64,000 bases of DNA from assembly GCF_017875325.1 (NCBI RefSeq), contig NZ_JAGGMN010000001.1, positions 2,624,140 to 2,688,139 on the forward strand. Direction: 5' to 3'. The translations under genes and the position numbers were made by a program. This document shows, piece by piece, positions 2,391-15,069 of this stretch. The stretch is from Methanofollis sp. W23 (GTDB taxonomy: Archaea > Halobacteriota > Methanomicrobia > Methanomicrobiales > Methanofollaceae). The notes beneath the pieces are model-generated. The model searched no databases. It saw nothing but the letters and a program-made list of their open reading frames with translations, and was not told the origin of the DNA. Within the stretch, counting starts at the first letter, position 1. The number at the start of each line of letters is the position of its first letter.

Positions 2391-3620
2391 ATGAAGCCCC
2401 TCCTCCTCCTCCTGACCATCGGGTTCCTCCTGACTGCCGGGTGTAGCACCCTTTCTGGGACACTGGCGATCATCTCAGAGCCCGAAGATGCCGCTGTCTA
2501 TCTCGACGGCGAGTACCGCGGTAACACCCCCTGCATGGTGCGCGAGGTCCAGGCCGGGAACCACACCCTCGAACTCCGCCACGAGCGCTACCCGGCCTGG
2601 CGGACCGACCTGGAGATGGGGATGGGCGAGGAGGTGGAGGTCGTCGCCGACCTTGCCGAGAACCTCGTCCCGGAGGTCACCTTCTCCTGCGAGGGGCCTG
2701 GCACATATGCGCAGGGCGAGACAGTTTCTATCACCGGCTACGCCGTCACCGGCGAAGGAACGGTTTCCCTTTCGGTCGAGCAACTCGACGGCGAGAGGCC
2801 CTTTGCCCCGCAGTCCTATCTGCTCCCGGTCGACGACGAGTATCTCTTCGAGTATCGTCTCCCGACCGATCTGATGCCGGGCGGGCGATACCGCCTCTCC
2901 GCCAGACTGGGCACCGGCGAGGTGGAGAACCAGACCCTCACCGTCCTCACTGAGGGGGAGGTGAACATCGCCGTCGTGCGGGAGATCGCCAGAACCTACC
3001 ACCAGACACATACCTACAGCAACGCCGACTTCTTCGTCTGCGCCGACATGGCCATGGACGTCTGGAACATGATCGAGACGAAGGGGATCGAGGCGAAGAT
3101 CGCGGTCGGCGACGTCCACCAGAGAGGCGAGGCGATCCATGAGGCCGACCATGCCTGGGTGCTGGCCGAGACCTCGCCTGGAGAGTGGACGGCAGTGGAG
3201 ACGACGGGCGGGTTCCTTGCCAGCGACGACGAAAATTACTATGAGGGCTGGTTCTTCGAGACCCCGCGGGATTTCAAGGAGTACATCGACCTCTCAAAGC
3301 AGTACAACGCAGAGGTGGACAAGGCCCTCGATCTTGAGTATCGGTACAATCGCATGGCCGATACCTACAATGAACGTCTCTCGAAACTCAACTCCATCAT
3401 CGACACATACAATGCGCGATATGCAGAACGCCCGCTGAGTCTTGAGGAGAACCGGGATGCTGAGAGGATGGAAGGGAGGATCAGTGAGCAGCAGGTCGAG
3501 TTGGCTGAGATGAAAGGCCAGGTCGAACAACTCTCACGAGAGTTCGATGCGGTTGAGAGGGGCATGGAGGAGATCCAGGCGCAGATGATGCGGTTGGTCG
3601 AGGAGATCGACAACCTCTGA
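2391..3620 (+). CDS. Lipoprotein with PEGA, Ig-like, transglutaminase-like and coiled-coil regions
   Basis: The 409-residue protein begins with a lipoprotein signal peptide ending LTAGC (Cys18 would be lipidated). Residues 23-70 form a PEGA-type beta domain (AAVYLDGEYRGNTP). Residues 95-190 look like an Ig-like domain (VTFSCEGPGTYAQGETVSITGYAV). A transglutaminase-like region at about 195-285 carries Cys217, His254 and an acidic residue near 270 in the expected order. A long coiled coil fills about 295-409. I chose the ATG at 2391 because the longer upstream reading has no signal peptide and overlaps the acs promoter; an AT-rich box at about 2358-2365 fits a leaderless start. It should be anchored outside the cell. 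Its substrate is unknown. Confidence 0.7.
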   Translation: MKPLLLLLTIGFLLTAGCSTLSGTLAIISEPEDAAVYLDGEYRGNTPCMVREVQAGNHTLELRHERYPAWRTDLEMGMGEEVEVVADLAENLVPEVTFSCEGPGTYAQGETVSITGYAVTGEGTVSLSVEQLDGERPFAPQSYLLPVDDEYLFEYRLPTDLMPGGRYRLSARLGTGEVENQTLTVLTEGEVNIAVVREIARTYHQTHTYSNADFFVCADMAMDVWNMIETKGIEAKIAVGDVHQRGEAIHEADHAWVLAETSPGEWTAVETTGGFLASDDENYYEGWFFETPRDFKEYIDLSKQYNAEVDKALDLEYRYNRMADTYNERLSKLNSIIDTYNARYAERPLSLEENRDAERMEGRISEQQVELAEMKGQVEQLSREFDAVERGMEEIQAQMMRLVEEIDNL

Positions 3621-4858: not shown

Positions 4859-5542
4859 TTAGGCATTGTTGGCAGTTTTTAGTGCCTCCCACTCTTTCAC
4901 TACGTCTTTGCCCTCGATGAAGACGAGCCCGTGCTTCTCTGCATAGGCCTTTGCGTCGTCCTTCGAGAGTGCGAGCCCGGTCTCGTCGTCGAGCATCTCG
5001 CAGACCACGACCGCAGGCGTCACCCCGGCCTGTTCGGCAAGGGCGATCGAGAGTTCGGTCTGTCCGCGCCGGTCGTCGAGGAGGCCGTCGGCCGCCCTCA
5101 GGATCGCCACGTGGCCCGGCGTCCTGAACTCAGCCGCGAAGTCCTGCCCCCCGCCGTTGAGAGACATCTTCACCTGGTCGGCGATGGCGTTGATGGTCGT
5201 CGCCCGGTCGCGGTCAGGGATCCCGGTGTAGGTGCTCCGGTGGTTCACCCAGATCGAGAACGACGAGTGGTTTTTCCGGTCATATGGGATGTCCCCCAGG
5301 TGCTCGACTGCTTCGAAGCCCTTCAGGAGGTCGGAGGCAAAGGGAAGACCGAGAGTTTTGGCCGCCTCAGGATGGACTGCAGTACAGATCAGTCCGCCCC
5401 CATCGCGGCGCATCGTCAGCACATCTCTGGGCGTGACGGCGTCGGCCCTGATGATCAGGTCGGTCTCCTTCTCGCGGTCGTCAAAGTCATAGAGCAGTAC
5501 CATCTTGCCCTCTCTGAGGGCGGCATAGGCGTCTTCAATCAT
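4859..5542 (-). CDS. ribB: 3,4-dihydroxy-2-butanone 4-phosphate synthase
   Basis: Makes the four-carbon unit of riboflavin (and of the F420 deazaflavin precursor) from ribulose 5-phosphate. The 227-residue protein shows the family motifs YDFDDREKETD (acidic metal/substrate site), RDGGGLICTAV and HRSTYTGIPDRDRATTI. The start at 5542 gives MIEDAYAAL and has GGAGGT just upstream; the longer frame runs back into ribK. It overlaps the end of ribK by 8 bases, so the two form an operon. Confidence 0.92.
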   Translation of the reverse strand: MIEDAYAALREGKMVLLYDFDDREKETDLIIRADAVTPRDVLTMRRDGGGLICTAVHPEAAKTLGLPFASDLLKGFEAVEHLGDIPYDRKNHSSFSIWVNHRSTYTGIPDRDRATTINAIADQVKMSLNGGGQDFAAEFRTPGHVAILRAADGLLDDRRGQTELSIALAEQAGVTPAVVVCEMLDDETGLALSKDDAKAYAEKHGLVFIEGKDVVKEWEALKTANNA

Positions 5543-6203
5543 GGGTAACCTCCACATGTACGATGTCATTATCATGCAGTCCAAAGGTCTCGCGTAAAGG
5601 AGCCGGCGCGATGATCTCAATGATCTCCTCGGGGTAGTGGCTCCGTCCTGGCTCGATGATCGCACCCGGGCACTCGCCGATACGGCACGGGAGACACCGA
5701 GCATCTCCAAACGATCTGCCGTCGGCCTCGAATCCCTTGATCCCGATCCAGACCAGTCCTTCCAGGCGACGTTTCACCTTGACGCTCTCAGGGTCGAGCC
5801 TGACATTGAGCGTGCCTGGATAGGCATTGAACCCGAGTTTCTCGATGAACTGTTCACGGTATTGGGGGTGATCGATGTAGTAGCGTCCCTCGCCGAGCCC
5901 GCTGATCACCGTCCCCTTAAGGACATAATATCCCCCGTCAGGGGAGAAGATCCGCGAGTACGCCGAGTACTCGCGCCTGAGTTCCTCCTCACCGGCAGGG
6001 GCGACGGCCACATACTGCCCGTCGGTCCTGACGGTGCGCGTGATCATCCCGGCCGCCTCAAGCCCCTTAAGCCGGCGGGAGGCTGTCTGAGGGCTGATGT
6101 TCAGGGCGTTTGCCAGGGACTGCGAGGACATCCACGCAGAGCTCCGTAGCCCGCCCATGAGTGCAACGACCTTCAGGCACTGGAGATCTCCTGCATCCAT
6201 CAT
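5535..6203 (-). CDS. ribK: Riboflavin kinase fused to winged-helix regulator (RbkR type)
   Basis: The 222-residue protein has an N-terminal winged helix (SSQSLANALNISPQTASRRLKGLEAAG, about 24-60). The C-terminal part is a CTP-dependent archaeal riboflavin kinase (GEGRYYIDHPQY, YPGTLNVRLD, ending HDNDIVHVEV). Proteins of this layout both make FMN and repress riboflavin genes in archaea. The start at 6203 lies about 27 bases from a TATA box (6227-6234), as for a leaderless mRNA; an upstream in-frame start would lie inside the promoter. It leads the ribK-ribB operon and is divergent from the HTH gene at 6314. Confidence 0.9.
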   Translation of the reverse strand: MMDAGDLQCLKVVALMGGLRSSAWMSSQSLANALNISPQTASRRLKGLEAAGMITRTVRTDGQYVAVAPAGEEELRREYSAYSRIFSPDGGYYVLKGTVISGLGEGRYYIDHPQYREQFIEKLGFNAYPGTLNVRLDPESVKVKRRLEGLVWIGIKGFEADGRSFGDARCLPCRIGECPGAIIEPGRSHYPEEIIEIIAPAPLRETFGLHDNDIVHVEVTHD

Positions 6204-6218
6204 GTATTTCAAAATTGA

Positions 6219-6234
6219 GATGCATCCTATATAT
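6219..6234 (-). promoter_or_regulatory. ribK promoter, with small palindrome
   Basis: On the minus strand ATATATAG (6227-6234) sits 24-31 bases before the ribK ATG. The adjacent GATGCATC (6219-6226) is an 8-bp palindrome between the TATA box and the start, where an autoregulator could block transcription. Promoter call from spacing; operator role is inference. Confidence 0.45.
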
Positions 6235-6313
6235 GGATTGCGCTCCGGCACTTCGCAGATTGTCGATGGAGCATTCGTTAATTATTTAATCTGCCTGGTA
6301 AACATCTATCCTC

Positions 6314-7027
6314 ATGAACTCCGAACTGCGTAAGCAGCTTGCCGAGAAGATGGCAGGTGAGATTACGCTCTCGGACTCACCGGGAAAAGCCCTGAAAAAA
6401 TGGCGCATGAGTTTCGGCATTCCGCAAGGAATGCTTTCAGAGCGGCTCGGCGTCTCTCCCTCGGTTATCTCAGACTATGAGGGTGGCAGGCGCAAAAGCC
6501 CGGGGACCGCCGTGGTCGGCAAGATCGTCGACACCATCCTCTCGATCGACGAGGAGAACGGCGGGAAATATATCCAGCGATTCTCCAGGATCCTCTACAA
6601 TGCCTTTGATGACGATGACGTCATCTATGACATCCACGACTACGCCTCTTCGGTCCCGATGACCGAGTTCGGGGAGGCTGTGGGTGCACAGCGACTCTGT
6701 GGATCAGTTGACCTTTCCATCTTCGGGTACACCGTGGTCAACAGCCTCAACGCGATCCTGCAGCTCTCCTCGAACGAGTTCAACCGCATCTATGGATGGA
6801 GCACCGAGCGTGCACTCATCTTCACCAATGTCTCGACCGGAAAATCCCCACTGGTGGCGATCAGGGTGACCCCTTTCAAGCCCCGGTGCGTGGTCCTCCA
6901 GGGACTCGAGGTGGAGCAGGTCCATCCGCTCGTTCCGAAGTTGGCTGAACGCGACCGTATCACTGTACTCTGCACATCGATGGACGTCGAACAAATCGTG
7001 AGCACATTGAGGGAAAAAGAATGGTAG
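6314..7027 (+). CDS. Archaeal HTH (XRE-type) transcriptional regulator, mevalonate operon leader
   Basis: The 237-residue protein has an XRE-type HTH at about 25-72 ([26 protein letters not shown]), then a conserved archaeal domain of unknown ligand. It belongs to a family of predicted archaeal regulators that often precede HMG-CoA synthase. Its stop lies inside the start of the HMG-CoA synthase gene (overlap 7021-7027), so the two are translationally coupled. A TATA-like ATTATTTAAT (6281-6290) lies about 25 bases before the ATG. Control of isoprenoid lipid precursor genes is an inference from position. Confidence 0.8.
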
Positions 7028-8076
7028 GCATCATCAGTTATGGGGCATATATCCCCAGGTTCAGGATCAAGGTCGAGGAGATCGCCCGGGTCTGGGGGGA
7101 CAACCCCAAGGACATCTCAGGCGGCCTTGGCGTCCAGGAAAAGTCGGTCCCCGACCTTGACGAGGACACCGCGACCATCGCCGTCGAGGCGACCAGGAAC
7201 GCACTCCTCAGAAGAGACGTCGACCGCGACGCCATCGGGGCGATCTATGTGGGCTCAGAGTCCCACCCCTACGCCGTCAAACCGACGGCGGCGACGGTCG
7301 GTGCGGCCATCGGGGCGACCCCCGTGATGACCGCGGCCGACTACGAATTTGCATGCAAGGCTGGCACTGCCGGTGTCCAGACCTGCATGGGTCTGGTCGG
7401 GAGCGAGATGGTGACATACGGCATCGCCGTTGGGGCCGACGTCGCTCAGGGTGCACCTGGCGACGCCCTCGAGTACACCGCTGCGGCTGGCGGGTGTGCG
7501 ATGGTCATCGGGTCCAAGAACCCGGTCGCCGAGATCAACCACACCTGCTCATATACCACCGACACGCCAGACTTCTGGCGCCGGGAAGGACAGGCATACC
7601 CCCGCCATGGGGGCCGGTTCACCGGTGACCCAGGCTACTTCAAGCATGTCCAGGGCGCGGCCCGGATGATGCTCGAACAGATGGGAACCAAGCCTTCCGA
7701 CTACGACTACGCCGTCTTCCACCAGCCAAACGCCAAGTTCCCGACACGTGTCGCCGGAAAACTTGGGTTTACCAGAGAGCAGATCACGCCAGGGCTTGTC
7801 GTCCCGCGCCTCGGGAACACCTACTCAGGCGCCTCGATGGTCGGGCTTGCGGCGACCCTCGACATCGCCAAACCAGGCGACCGGATCTTTGTCACCTCCT
7901 TTGGCTCGGGTGCAGGCAGCGACGCCTTCGACATCACGGTCACCGACCTGATCGCGGACACCAACGTCTTCGACCGGGCGGCGGCACCGTCAGTGGAGGC
8001 CCTCCTCGCCGACCCGATCTATCTCGACTATGCACAGTATGCCAAACACAAGGGTAAGATCATGGTGCAAAAATGA
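7021..8076 (+). CDS. Hydroxymethylglutaryl-CoA synthase
   Basis: Condenses acetyl-CoA with acetoacetyl-CoA to HMG-CoA, the second step of the mevalonate pathway for archaeal lipids. The 351-residue length fits the archaeal family. The active-site Cys is C112 in [10 protein letters not shown], the general base Glu is in YVGSESHPY (E80), and the conserved His is in [10 protein letters not shown]. It overlaps the regulator upstream and the thiolase downstream (4 bases). In archaea this enzyme forms a channelling complex with the thiolase and a DUF35 protein, and all three genes are adjacent here. Confidence 0.95.
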
Positions 8077-10594: not shown

Positions 10595-11819
10595 TTGCCT
10601 CACCTCCCAGGAGGTTGAGCAGTTCGGCATGTCGATCTTTATCAAAGGTAACCGGAGAACATTCCTTGACAAGGATGGTGTCCCCCAGGTCATTGCCGGT
10701 GCAGGTGAAATATCGTCCCATAATCGTCTCTTTGAGACGGTAGAAGACATCGTCCATACCCATCGGACTGTTCTCGGCCGTCTCGACCGCCTCTTCAAGG
10801 GTGACCCCGGTCACCGTCTCGACGACCTCGCGCTGCATCAGGATATTGTGCGCCTTCTCTCCGTCGTCGAGGACTCCCTTGATCCGCAGGTCATACCTGA
10901 AGTCGTTCTGCATCTCATGTACAGGGCAGTAATTCATCCGCGAGAGGACACGGTTGCACCCCTCTACTGGACAGCGTTTGATCACCCCTGAACCAGGCCC
11001 GATATTGATGATCGCCCCCTGGTAGGTCATGCCGCCGGTACCGACCTCCATCTCTGCATCTTCGTCAGGGACACAGGTAGCCCCATTGAGAGTGATATCT
11101 GGGCGCCCCTGATATTCGCCGACTGAGGCATAGAAGATATTGTAGACCATGCCGACCTCGAGTCTGGGGGCATCGTCGCCCTTCCAGGTGGTGAACTTGA
11201 CCGTCCCTGTCTCGTCGCCGACAAGTCCGGTCTGGAAGATCCGCTCGTGGCGCGCCTCCCACTCTTGGACCATCTTCACCCGCAGACACGCGACCCCCGG
11301 CCTGAGGTCGGCGACATTCGTCACCTGCGGCAGGAATGTGATGTTCTCCTCGCTCTGGGTGATCGTCGTCCCGGCATGGAAGTTCAGTTTCGGCACGCCG
11401 CGGTACTCGTCCACGACCACCGACTCGATCCGGTAAGACTCCCCCATCTCGAGGAGAGGGGCGTTTGCCCGCGCCCATGCCGTGAACTGGATCGCGCCCG
11501 TGGCGTCGGCGATGACCCCGGTCTGTTTGATCATGGGTGAAACAGGAGTCGAGAGCCCGACGACCTTCCCCTCGATCGTCGCCCACTCACCAGGGAGGAG
11601 GGTCCCGATCTCGCGCTGTTCTGAGGTCTGGCGGGGGACACTCTCCAGACCGTGCTCCTTGGCGATGTTCTCACTCACGGTCTTCTCGGCCTCGGTGAGG
11701 TTGACCCCGAACTCATCTACGAGAGTACGGAGTTTTTTCTCAATGGAGGCCGCATCGACCTCGACAGACTGTGAGGTGAACTTCTGGGAGATTCTTTCTG
11801 CTACTTCGGACAGGTCCAT
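10584..11819 (-). CDS. Replication factor A (RPA), multi-OB single-strand DNA binding protein
   Basis: The protein binds single-stranded DNA in replication and repair. After a helical N-terminus there are at least three OB folds: about 65-170 (GEWATIEGKVVGLSTP...), 175-280 (ACLRVKMVQEWEARHE...) and a C-terminal one containing a zinc finger (CPVEGC...MNYCPVHE). I favour the ATG at 11819 (MDLSEVAERISQK, 411 residues) because GGAG sits six bases upstream; ATG at 11825 or GTG at 11831 are possible. It is divergent from the DUF1858 gene. Confidence 0.9.
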   Translation of the reverse strand: MDLSEVAERISQKFTSQSVEVDAASIEKKLRTLVDEFGVNLTEAEKTVSENIAKEHGLESVPRQTSEQREIGTLLPGEWATIEGKVVGLSTPVSPMIKQTGVIADATGAIQFTAWARANAPLLEMGESYRIESVVVDEYRGVPKLNFHAGTTITQSEENITFLPQVTNVADLRPGVACLRVKMVQEWEARHERIFQTGLVGDETGTVKFTTWKGDDAPRLEVGMVYNIFYASVGEYQGRPDITLNGATCVPDEDAEMEVGTGGMTYQGAIINIGPGSGVIKRCPVEGCNRVLSRMNYCPVHEMQNDFRYDLRIKGVLDDGEKAHNILMQREVVETVTGVTLEEAVETAENSPMGMDDVFYRLKETIMGRYFTCTGNDLGDTILVKECSPVTFDKDRHAELLNLLGGEANGE

Positions 11820-11932
11820 ATACATCTCCACAGGAGCATCAACTCATGGGTATAAAAAATCAGTCGGGCGGGGGGTGAAAGTGATCGCTGTCTGGTCGTA
11901 CCTTTAAGTACTCATGAGTCTAAATTTTGAAT

Positions 11933-12124
11933 ATGGCGATCACCGCTGACAGTACGATCCTGGAACTTCTCCAGGAGAAGCCGGAATCTGCAGATGTCCT
12001 GATGCGCTTTGGCATGGGTTGCCTTGGCTGTGCAATCGGTAGGGGCGAGAGTATCCGCCAGGCCGCGGCTGCGCATGGCATCCCGCTCGAAGAACTTGTT
12101 GCGGCGCTGGGCATCGAGGAGTAA
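11933..12124 (+). CDS. DUF1858 small redox-type protein
   Basis: A 63-residue protein of the DUF1858 family, seen alone or attached to hybrid-cluster and other redox proteins. C30 and C33 form a CLGC motif (FGMGCLGCAIGRGE), a likely disulfide or metal site. The C-terminal helix bundle (AAAAHGIPLEELVAALG) is typical. The ATG at 11933 is preferred over a TTG two codons upstream. A TATA-like TTTAAG at 11902-11907 gives a near-leaderless transcript. Function unknown. Confidence 0.8.
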   Translation: MAITADSTILELLQEKPESADVLMRFGMGCLGCAIGRGESIRQAAAAHGIPLEELVAALGIEE

Positions 12125-12127
12125 AAA

Positions 12128-13027
12128 TTATATTATGGGGCGGTCCTTGAGGGATGCCCGATATTTTTTCATTTCTTTGAGCGTCGCTTCGGGGTTGCGC
12201 TTGAAGTAAGCTGCCACCCTGGTTTCATGAAGGAGCGTGCACCGACTGCAACTCCAGATCCGTCCACTACTTGAACTCTCGACCCAGTCGCCGAGTTCTT
12301 CGTCCTTACACGGGTAGAAAGGACAATAACAGAAGTCGCAGACCTGGCCCTCGAAGTGGCAGGGATAATACGGACATCCCTCAGGTTGCCACTCCACCCA
12401 GTGGTCGCCGCCGTACCTGCTGAAGATAAAGTAGGACGGACGTTTCCTGACGATCTTTCCTTCCTGCCGGTCAAGCGCCTCATGCACCCCGCGGAGCACC
12501 GCGGCGTACACCCGGCGCCCCACCTCGGTGAAGGTGCCGGCATAGATATGCTTCTCTTCTCCTTCTGAGGCCACGATCACGGCGTCGGTCGTCGTCCCGG
12601 TGAAGGGACGCCCGTCCTCCCGCAGGGCCAGCGCCTTTGCCTCGGTGGCAGTAATGATCGTCTCAAGGAGCGCCCCTTCGCTGAGCCCTTCTCTGGAGGT
12701 GACGATGATGTTGATGGTATGGGGGCGGTCAGGGTCGGGGTTCGGGTTTGTGACCCCTGCGGTTACAAAGACGGTGATGAAGTCGTACTGCAGGACACAG
12801 AGGTGGCGCATCTGGACCGCGGTAAGGAGCCCGAAATAGTCCTGATCATACCCCCAGGAAGATGCAAGGTCTTGAAGGTACCTGGCAGGTGCGGCATGGT
12901 CAAACCCGCTCGGGACCGTATGGTTGAAGAGGGTCGTGACCCGCCCGAACCCTCCGGCGATCCCGGTACTTGCCGCTCTGAAGTCCCCCCTGACAATAAG
13001 GGTGCCAGAGGTGTAGTAATACCTCAT
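12128..13027 (-). CDS. cbiZ: Adenosylcobinamide amidohydrolase fused to Cys-rich domain
   Basis: The first about 200 residues match CbiZ, which removes aminopropanol from salvaged adenosylcobinamide to give adenosylcobyric acid for corrinoid synthesis (needed for the methyl transfer enzyme Mtr). Family traits include SGFDHAAPARYL, FVTAGVTNPN and VIVASEG. The last about 100 residues are a Cys-rich metal-binding domain (YYPCHFEGQVCDFCYCPFYPC region, then CSRC). The start at 13027 overlaps the upstream stop by four bases, so it is coupled to the glycyl-radical-like gene. The role of the Cys-rich tail is unknown. Confidence 0.85.
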   Translation of the reverse strand: MRYYYTSGTLIVRGDFRAASTGIAGGFGRVTTLFNHTVPSGFDHAAPARYLQDLASSWGYDQDYFGLLTAVQMRHLCVLQYDFITVFVTAGVTNPNPDPDRPHTINIIVTSREGLSEGALLETIITATEAKALALREDGRPFTGTTTDAVIVASEGEEKHIYAGTFTEVGRRVYAAVLRGVHEALDRQEGKIVRKRPSYFIFSRYGGDHWVEWQPEGCPYYPCHFEGQVCDFCYCPFYPCKDEELGDWVESSSSGRIWSCSRCTLLHETRVAAYFKRNPEATLKEMKKYRASLKDRPII

Positions 13028-13386
13028 GCGACAGTGTACCTGACCCGGTCCTTCAGCTCTTGCTGTTTCCCGGCATTCCAACCAGAGACATCCTGGAGAT
13101 ATCCGGTGACCCGACTGATCTGGGTGACGTCGTGCGACCCGCACTCAGGGCAGACCGGGGCGCCGCAGAGAGGGCAGTAGTCGATCCCTGAGACGATCTC
13201 GTGGGGACAGTGCGTGTGGTCGAGGGGGCACATGATCTCAAGTTCGGTCTCGCCGCAGACTGGACAGGGTGCGCTCTCGACGACATGGTTACAGGTGTGG
13301 CACTTGTACCGCCGTTCTTCAACCGGAATATCACTCAATTTTTGATATTTTTTTGCCAGAGCCAGTTGCTCGTCACTCCACTGCAT
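13024..13386 (-). CDS. Small protein resembling the C-terminal zinc/glycyl-radical end of class III ribonucleotide reductase
   Basis: The 120-residue protein has three Cys pairs forming zinc ribbons (C29/C32 with C41/C44; C53/C60; C71/C74 with C79/C82). It ends with SRVTGYLQDVSGWN and KDRVRY, which look like the glycyl-radical loop of anaerobic NrdD (RVxGY, Gly95). The rest of NrdD is absent, so it cannot reduce nucleotides alone. It could be a spare-part radical domain, a regulator, or a zinc protein that keeps the motif. A TATA box (about 13405-13416, minus strand) lies 20-30 bases upstream, suggesting a leaderless mRNA. It is coupled to cbiZ. Confidence 0.7.
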   Translation of the reverse strand: MQWSDEQLALAKKYQKLSDIPVEERRYKCHTCNHVVESAPCPVCGETELEIMCPLDHTHCPHEIVSGIDYCPLCGAPVCPECGSHDVTQISRVTGYLQDVSGWNAGKQQELKDRVRYTVA

Positions 13387-13515
13387 GCAATACCCTTCCA
13401 GTTGAAATTATATAGAGATTCGGACCTGAACACGGGTTCTGTCTCTTGAGGATCTGGTGTGGGCGTCAGGGAAGAAGCCGAAGATATATCTTCCTTATTT
13501 GCCTATGGATCATGA

Positions 13516-15069
13516 ATGCAGTGTCCTTCGAAACGTCTGGTTCTTCTGACGTTTTTGGTGTTCATCGGCCTCGGTGTGCCGTGTACGGCCGAAAACGTCA
13601 CGACAGTGCCAAACATCCCGATCATAAACCAGAGCCTTGCCGCCTTTGATATTTTCTCTGACTCTGAAGTGGAGTACGTCCCTCCAGATTCTGAATACTA
13701 CGCAGCCGCTGCTGAATATCAGGTCTTTGAGGCATGTGCCGGGTGTAGTGGCCCGGCCGCCCTGGCAAAGAAGGTCAGGGTCACCACCTACCCGGTGATC
13801 ACCGACCCTGACCTGGCCGACCCGGTCTACCTTGGGCGGGGTCAGGGTGTGAAGGTCGACCTCTTCCCAGAGGGGGATCCTGACACTCTCGAGGGGACGC
13901 TCGGGAGTTATGAAGCAGATGCCACCAGGATCGCAGGTGCCCTTTTCACCGGTGATCTCGGGACAAGGACCGCCTTTGTTGCGGTCTTCTTCAGGGAAGG
14001 GACACCTGATGAGCATAATGCCAGGTTTATTCTCAACGCCGCCGACGCCGCGAAGTTTGGGGATACATGGGATGAAAGCTCATATATCAGGTTCCGCGAC
14101 TGGACTGAGGCATCGGTGAGCGCAGAAGAGATCGCAGGCTATGAGGAACCTGGTGGCGCACTGGAGACGACTGGCCCGGTCCTGGCCCTGGGTGAACCCC
14201 AGGGGGGGGCGTCCTGTGACCAGGAGGAGTTGAAGCAGAGGATGCGCGAGACCGCTGACGACCTGGCGGCCAGCGTGAGTAGCCTCACTCTCTCGGCAGG
14301 GGACGAGAACCAGAATAAGGTGGCCGTCCTTGCCCTGGACCTGGCTGATGCGGCACGGTCGTATGCTATCGAGTATGAAGACCTGGAGGTGCCGGCGAGT
14401 GCTGACGGCGCCAGGGCGGACTTTGTCATGGCACTGGATGCCTACCAGGATGCAGGGTCGGCGCTCTGGTATGGGGTCACCTGTGCGAACACGACGGTGT
14501 ACGGGGAGGGGGCCACCTCGCTCACTGAGGCGCGCGACACGATGAACGGGGTGCTCGGGGCGCTTGCCCTCCAGACCCTTGACGACCCGACTCTTGAACT
14601 TCCGTCGGCCGAGGTCTACCCTGACGCCCTCGCCTTCGGGAAGGGGTATAGTTATCTTGATAGCGGAAAAGTGCACAAAATCTCGGTACGGCCTGAATCG
14701 TACACCTTCACGAAGTCCTATAAGGCAGGCGACGAAGAGGTGACGGCGCCCTATGGGAAGACGTTCATGATGGTCCTGGTGGACGTGAATTATCTTGGGT
14801 TCTATGGTGGGGGGAGTTCTAGGGCCAAGGTCCCTGCACCCCAGACCTTCTCCCTGATCAATGGAGGGGAGACCTATGCGCCTGCCACGGTCTCGGTCCC
14901 TTATATCGAGGGGATCGGGACGGTCTACCGCAGTGTCACCATCGACCGGGACGACCGCCGTGCGATCGGGTTCCTGGTCTTCGAAGTACCTGAGTCCTTT
15001 GATCCGGCGAATGCGTATCTCCAGGCGAAGTTAGGTGTGGGGGGCTCGCCGGTCTGGTGCCTGGGATAA
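13516..15069 (+). CDS. Secreted protein of unknown function
   Basis: The 517-residue protein starts with a clear signal peptide (RLVLLTFLVFIGLGVPCTA). The mature part begins with a long low-complexity acidic stretch, then an N-terminal beta region with a CAGC motif at about 74-77. A helical segment follows at about 235-360 (KQRMRETADDLAASVSSL..., AVLALDLADAARSYA), with further cysteines. The C-terminal beta domain at about 375-517 (YGKTFMMVLVDVNYLGFY, YRSVTIDRDDRRAIGFLVFEV) resembles DUF4352-like extracellular domains. No enzyme motif is seen. The ATG at 13516 directly precedes the basic signal start. It stands alone, with T-rich DNA after the stop. Confidence 0.7.
   Translation: MQCPSKRLVLLTFLVFIGLGVPCTAENVTTVPNIPIINQSLAAFDIFSDSEVEYVPPDSEYYAAAAEYQVFEACAGCSGPAALAKKVRVTTYPVITDPDLADPVYLGRGQGVKVDLFPEGDPDTLEGTLGSYEADATRIAGALFTGDLGTRTAFVAVFFREGTPDEHNARFILNAADAAKFGDTWDESSYIRFRDWTEASVSAEEIAGYEEPGGALETTGPVLALGEPQGGASCDQEELKQRMRETADDLAASVSSLTLSAGDENQNKVAVLALDLADAARSYAIEYEDLEVPASADGARADFVMALDAYQDAGSALWYGVTCANTTVYGEGATSLTEARDTMNGVLGALALQTLDDPTLELPSAEVYPDALAFGKGYSYLDSGKVHKISVRPESYTFTKSYKAGDEEVTAPYGKTFMMVLVDVNYLGFYGGGSSRAKVPAPQTFSLINGGETYAPATVSVPYIEGIGTVYRSVTIDRDDRRAIGFLVFEVPESFDPANAYLQAKLGVGGSPVWCLG

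Follow-up and report, generated by a model that had tools for sequence, protein, structure and literature searches.

Class III ribonucleotide reductases (RNRs) depend on an activase, NrdG, which generates a glycyl radical near the C-terminus of NrdD; this radical in turn gives rise to a thiyl radical at the catalytic barrel. Radical and active site reside on one chain in glycyl-radical enzymes as described, and the known NrdD likewise carries its barrel and its glycyl radical on a single polypeptide. The accessible part of PMC4493059 likewise gives the step from glycyl to thiyl radical as class III chemistry, with the glycyl radical close to the C-terminus of NrdD. Free glycyl-radical domains (GRDs) that act in trans have been described for pyruvate formate-lyase (PFL). 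YfiD (GrcA) and Y06I of phage T4 comprise about 120-130 amino acids and, according to the available sections of PMC8683613, are the only validated spare parts, both serving PFL, while parts for other glycyl-radical enzymes are considered possible. Two-chain RNRs are known from class II: NrdJa/NrdJb of Pseudomonas has a smaller chain with a zinc finger, but is B12-dependent and has no glycyl radical (PMC4520616, PMC9669993). In phages, nrdD coding regions can be in pieces, yet the accessible part of PMC3653736 reports sporadic breaks with introns, inteins and homing endonucleases, and no lineage-wide radical subunit. Among the titles and abstract openings listed in searches of the open-access literature, none describes a class III RNR whose glycyl radical resides on a subunit of its own in cells. 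Passages of the relevant papers mention split class II RNRs or phage genes split by introns or endonucleases, but no such radical subunit (PMC9669993, PMC9531940, PMC3653736, PMC3322345, PMC4493059, PMC2795772, PMC3019208).

We analysed a stretch of 64,000 nucleotides from Methanofollis sp. W23, hereafter the window. An open reading frame on its reverse strand (13024..13386, ATG start, TGA stop) encodes a protein of 120 amino acids that we propose to be a trans-acting glycyl-radical subunit of a class III RNR. Residues 66-117 match positions 506-562 of the 562 positions of the Pfam profile PF13597 (NRDD; E 2.1e-16, above the gathering cut-off). The last 40 positions of the NrdD model TIGR02487 match as well (E 4e-16), with a score far below the whole-protein cut-off, as must be the case for any fragment. 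NCBIfam NrdD models cover the same C-terminal stretch, and the top match among PDB sequences is the C-terminus of NrdD 8p23 (E 1.5e-7). The first-pass annotation, made from the letters alone, had described a free-standing NrdD-type glycyl-radical end without a catalytic barrel, and these matches bear out both points: the small protein holds no barrel with active-site cysteines, which sits on a separate gene. Like GrcA/YfiD, it is a free GRD homologous to the C-terminus of its enzyme. Unlike YfiD and Y06I, it belongs to another enzyme family, since no PFL-type glycyl-radical Pfam family matched up to E 1, only NRDD and zinc ribbons. Class II RNR families were not matched either; Pfam and NCBIfam returned class III NrdD only.

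The C-terminal glycyl-radical motif of class III RNRs, R-V/I-T-G-Y, is present as RVTGY (residues 92-96, 13099..13113, reverse strand) and aligns with the GY motif of 8p23. The codon of the proposed radical residue, Gly95, lies within it at 13102-13104 on the same strand. Three cysteine-containing elements precede the motif, all on the reverse strand. A predicted zinc knuckle, C71-x2-C74-x4-C79-x2-C82 (13141..13176), adjoins the radical loop; such zinc-binding cysteines are a class III trait, but the spacing differs from that of fused NrdD. A middle Cys/His cluster spans C53 to C60 (residues 53-60, 13207..13230). The N-terminal zinc ribbon, C29-x2-C32...C41-x2-C44 (13255..13302), lies outside the NRDD match and is no part of ordinary NrdD. 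For comparison, we collected host orthologues with six query peptides and kept the best 80 of 141. All 81 host proteins, including that of the window, are 120 amino acids long, and the ten cysteines (four in the knuckle, two in the middle cluster and four in the ribbon) are invariant. When seven stretches were compared, residues 92-97 varied least, with a mean entropy of 0.02 bit. Non-conservation of the motif, or free variation of Gly95, had been named in advance as an argument against a radical domain. Neither was seen, because SRVTGY (residues 91-96), with Gly95, is found in 81 of 81 proteins alongside the ten invariant cysteines. A first AlphaFold model was poor in the GRD; a second was confident (pLDDT 82). 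Fold searches (Foldseek best E 1.0, VIA-align best Z 2.6) returned unrelated or small zinc-ribbon proteins, with NrdD unlisted.

A whole-genome search with PF13597 yielded three pieces only: the window gene (506-562) and two parts of a barrel, 1-60 and 53-510. The barrel NrdD is encoded outside the window, 0.85 Mb from the small gene (G000:C1:1785507-1788569), in an open reading frame of 1170 amino acids (L087:5445-8957(-)) whose profile match is split by an intein. It stops at profile position 510, so that GRD, zinc knuckle and radical loop are absent. The C-terminal end reads ...GYFAFTRDLTVSLKRFKEYRGDPKVRGKLEA*, 20 residues past FAFTRDLTV, and the following open reading frame on the same strand lies within four bases of the stop. 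A search with the small protein found the window gene as the sole match and only GRD of the genome. Thus the only barrel of the genome lacks a radical domain, and its only radical domain lacks a barrel, which answers the question, raised in the first pass, whether a full NrdD with or without the motif exists. Also present is NrdG2, the dedicated radical-SAM activase expected of a class III system (C1:1210300-1210860; 155.2 bits versus a cut-off of 131.15, TIGR02495). TIGR02495 is the right model here; matches to the NrdG model TIGR02491 stayed below its cut-off. The system resembles class III NrdD in the homology of loop and knuckle to the NrdD C-terminus and in the accompanying barrel and activase, but differs in its distribution over two genes, its additional N-terminal ribbon and its C-x2-C-x4-C-x2-C knuckle.

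Some further features of these genes were observed. The genome also encodes a PF02867 (class I/II-type) reductase (L088:3626-6904(-)), and both reductases carry an intein-like insert, located in NrdD directly ahead of the invariant Cys185. NrdD frames of 1.6-2.0 thousand residues in some genomes of the order suggest further inteins. The gene after NrdD (L087:4410-5441(-)) encodes a DUF1786 protein, listed in Pfam as a putative pyruvate formate-lyase activating enzyme.

We then compared 120 genomes of the Methanomicrobiales, 149 of the class (a largely overlapping set that contains the same order) and 148 of the phylum. PF13597 matched in 104 of the 120 genomes of the order. Among the matches listed, the barrels end at profile positions 500-516, except for pieces broken inside the barrel; a complete NrdD occurs only in G001, as an additional copy. 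The draw from the class gave the same picture of barrel ends among the matches listed (135 of 149 genomes with a match). Outside the order, 83 genomes of the phylum set had a match; in 79 of these a listed NrdD match reaches 560-562, and the other four have fragments or a marginal match. Barrel and small GRD gene are both present in 100 of the 120 genomes, a count that includes G061, whose small gene is fragmentary and lies at the edge of a contig. A weak match in G024 (E 0.0022, residues 31-88, internal stop) was left out of all counts. Two genomes, 62% and 82% complete (G056 and G098), have the GRD only, and two drafts (G038 and G085) the barrel only. The latter two also lack cbiZ, which elsewhere lies beside the small gene, so the operon of both genes is probably missing from the assemblies. 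Neither barrel nor GRD was found in 16 genomes, all of one genus (g16), which may be Methanocorpusculum.

Co-occurrence with an NrdG activase, proposed earlier as a check, followed the same pattern: NrdG2 exceeded the cut-off in 100 of the 120 genomes. The remaining 20 comprise all 16 genomes of g16 and four others, three of which are incomplete to varying degrees (G061, 56% complete; G089, 91%; G109, 86%); the fourth, G096, scores 129.1 bits against the cut-off of 131.15. In g16, barrel, radical domain and activase have been lost together while the operon neighbour cbiZ stays. As this co-loss is restricted to one genus, it counts phylogenetically as one event. All 66 aligned NrdDs (37 split, 29 fused) have the barrel cysteines C185 and C415. 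Three columns of the GRD are occupied by Cys in every one of the 29 fused rows. In the first of these columns, Cys is present in 5 of 37 split rows; in the second and third, the four most frequent residues of the split rows do not include it. None of the 38 C-tails of split barrels examined contains the radical motif, and the truncated barrels have an end of their own, 29-43 residues long from FAFT on. On the 66-row tree, the split requires one change (SH-aLRT 88, quick method); as far as sequences tell, the split barrels are of single origin. No barrel NrdD occurred in the 80 small-gene loci, that is, the two genes are unlinked in the host. In G034, two equal-scoring truncated barrels lie 14 kb apart (C1:285076-286791 and 300796-302511).

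Related genes were also found in viruses. Since our viral scans required motif peptides, invariance of the motif among viral copies is partly selected. An IMG/VR scan with the host alignment returned six contigs, five with a zinc-type free GRD and one (L171) of a different type. Searched whole, these six records, which may be fragments, gave NRDD matches to GRD pieces only; genes for terminase (L168 and L170), portal protein (L168) and baseplate J (L169) identify tailed viruses. Further scans added free GRDs on L188, L189, L190 and L251, with no barrel match in the fetched flanks. Altogether, nine viral contigs contain a host-type GRD and no barrel that we could see. When we searched IMG/VR with the split barrel instead, seven contigs were obtained, five with fused NrdD and two (L182 and L184) with a barrel truncated like that of the host (PF13597 1-513 of 562). 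Both of these large contigs encode the GRD, a glutaredoxin (PF00462) and the truncated barrel in this order, adjacent and on one strand, and L182 has a thymidylate synthase downstream. Of all single findings, these two operons speak most strongly for a partnership between the free GRD and the truncated barrel. For comparison, an nrdH-nrdD-nrdG operon is reported for M. mazei in the available part of PMC9694453, and the accessible text of PMC9894754 names NrdD among the auxiliary genes of ANME-1 viruses. Phage and plasmid searches gave, among the matches listed, NrdD C-termini or unannotated stretches, none covering 80% of the query. The ANMV-1 protein as viral query had no matches, and a plasmid search with a g59 GRD found fused NrdD only.

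Other radical-loop genes of phages were seen along the way. L171 has a weak radical-SAM/Fer4_12 gene (2407-3483(-)) near its different-type free radical domain. Bacterial-type phage contigs in IMG/VR (L216, L217, L220-L229, L231, L192) contain tiny free radical-loop ORFs in frames of 51-110 amino acids, with the pattern ...RRITGYL...WN..K.AELKDR...; an NrdD barrel went unmatched in the fetched flanks of 13 of the 15 loci tested, L171 included. These ORFs are possible viral spare parts. On two IMG/VR contigs (L225:2352-4780 and L228:2374-4802), the match of the phage NrdD to a complete phage NrdD breaks off at residue 711 of 748, and some 245 nt further on the radical loop has a small ORF of its own; this is a convergent split class III RNR. 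In Eggerthella phage EL753P1 (L241, OP172808), the nrdD CDS stops ahead of the radical loop, which is found unannotated some 400-500 nt downstream, across two frames.

Free GRDs beside a complete fused NrdD were detected in six genomes outside the order, four of g59 (G191, G199, G211, G248) and two of g80 (G262, G285), in open frames of 119-194 amino acids. A seventh genome, G216, also has a fused NrdD; its free GRD gene has a degenerate end (L247:4819-5160(+)) and immediately precedes the gene of a class II-type reductase (5394-7799(+)). Counted back from the radical Gly, the cysteines stand at -35 (or -34), -24, -21, -16 and -13 in the free GRDs that we compared, from the host, from g59 and g80 and from viruses; those of L167 and L188 are displaced by one position. 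In contrast, fused GRDs of this kind in archaea have Cys at -30 (often -27 too), -16 and -13, and the fused types f10/f12 and f14 show other patterns. The knuckle is thus particular to the free family, and together with the extra ribbon this spacing indicates that the free GRD is not simply an excised C-terminus. A GRD tree of 47 rows and 64 columns has little support and needs 3 changes for the free GRDs. In this tree, the free GRD of virus ANMV-1 (GenBank protein AJP62049, 144 aa) falls beside the f10/f12 fused type and, on that placement, may be a separate invention.

Downstream of the small gene, and overlapping it by 4 nt (ATGA), lies cbiZ (12128..13027, reverse strand; CbiZ with a PF04071 Cys-rich domain, PF01955 E 1e-40). 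The overlap behind the coupling noted at first pass is real. Of the 80 orthologous loci, 78 have a cbiZ match downstream; in 53 of these, its first matched base is at the position expected from the ATGA overlap, and at the other two loci the available sequence stops 288 and 33 bases past the small gene. This operon, the two zinc ribbons of the small protein and the PF02867 reductase in the same genome would suit a zinc-ribbon regulator of nucleotide reduction or of corrinoid use, tied to CbiZ, in which the radical motif is inherited but unused. The first-pass annotation had indeed offered a corrinoid-linked regulator and a tie to corrinoid salvage. We reject this, because all 16 g16 genomes retain cbiZ after the loss of barrel, GRD and NrdG2; no Rfam family matched at 11800-14000. 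Furthermore, the radical loop, supposedly unused, is the least variable part of the protein, and the viral copies adjoin glutaredoxin and NrdD barrel, with no cbiZ in the loci tested. A regulator is therefore so improbable that we give it little weight, and the operon is conserved yet not functionally tied. Even less credence, virtually none, goes to an ordinary one-chain NrdD whose pieces are joined after translation or whose gap is an assembly artefact. Protein splicing does occur in the nrdD gene, as the intein of the Methanofollis NrdD shows, but the small protein starts with its own conserved Met and an extra zinc ribbon, no intein half was seen, and the distinct C-terminal ends of the truncated barrels do not fit pieces to be joined. 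An assembly or frameshift artefact is rejected, given the same break in many unrelated assemblies and the next ORF within four bases of the barrel stop.

A spare part in the manner of YfiD, which would replace only the radical domain of an oxygen-cut NrdD and otherwise be dispensable, comes closer. It shares its architecture with YfiD (PMC8683613, in the part available), and both the six g59 and g80 genomes and the viruses with a GRD alone are in line with it. However, the NrdD of Methanofollis, and of its order as sampled, lacks any in-cis radical domain that a spare part could replace, whereas such a domain is kept in the six other genomes. For the Methanofollis genome we reject a pure spare part, and overall this explanation is very unlikely. 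From the idea of a spare-part radical domain put forward earlier, the trans-acting radical part stands as the best reading; the term 'spare part' understates it, the partner NrdD being without a domain of its own. For the same reason, an obligate subunit is the most likely role of the small protein. We are thus confident, though short of certain, that it is the obligate, trans-acting, radical-bearing subunit of a two-polypeptide class III RNR. Complementary gene content, co-occurrence and co-loss across the order, conservation and viral operons support this computationally. We infer that barrel and small protein associate, that Gly95 carries the radical and that the complex is catalytic. NrdD would supply the barrel with its conserved cysteines, without a glycyl-radical domain, and the 120-aa protein the zinc knuckle and radical loop. 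The loop would insert into the barrel like the in-cis loop of ordinary NrdD. NrdG2 would generate the radical on Gly95, from which a thiyl radical would form on a barrel cysteine and NTPs would be reduced.

With free GRDs in six genomes that have an intact NrdD, a spare-part ancestor is plausible. We infer that the trans-acting GRD came first and that the order then lost its in-cis domain, a sequence of events beyond the reach of a 64-column tree. A wider scenario strikes us as evenly balanced between right and wrong. In it, a family of trans-acting GRDs for RNR would be common to archaea and their viruses, acting as a spare part in g59 and g80 and having taken over fully in the Methanomicrobiales, where NrdD lost its own domain and two subunits resulted. 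Viruses without a barrel would plug their subunit of about 100-130 amino acids into the large subunit of the host for dNTP synthesis during infection.

Annotation may label the small gene as NrdD and the large gene as a complete NrdD. If our reading is true, a lineage-wide separate radical subunit would provide a natural two-component system in which the installation of the radical, the docking of the loop and the damage by oxygen can be dissected. The viral copies make it testable whether viruses recharge the host enzyme via the radical part alone. Such a subunit would also show that the residue most vulnerable to oxygen can be placed on a small protein that is inexpensive to make and to replace.
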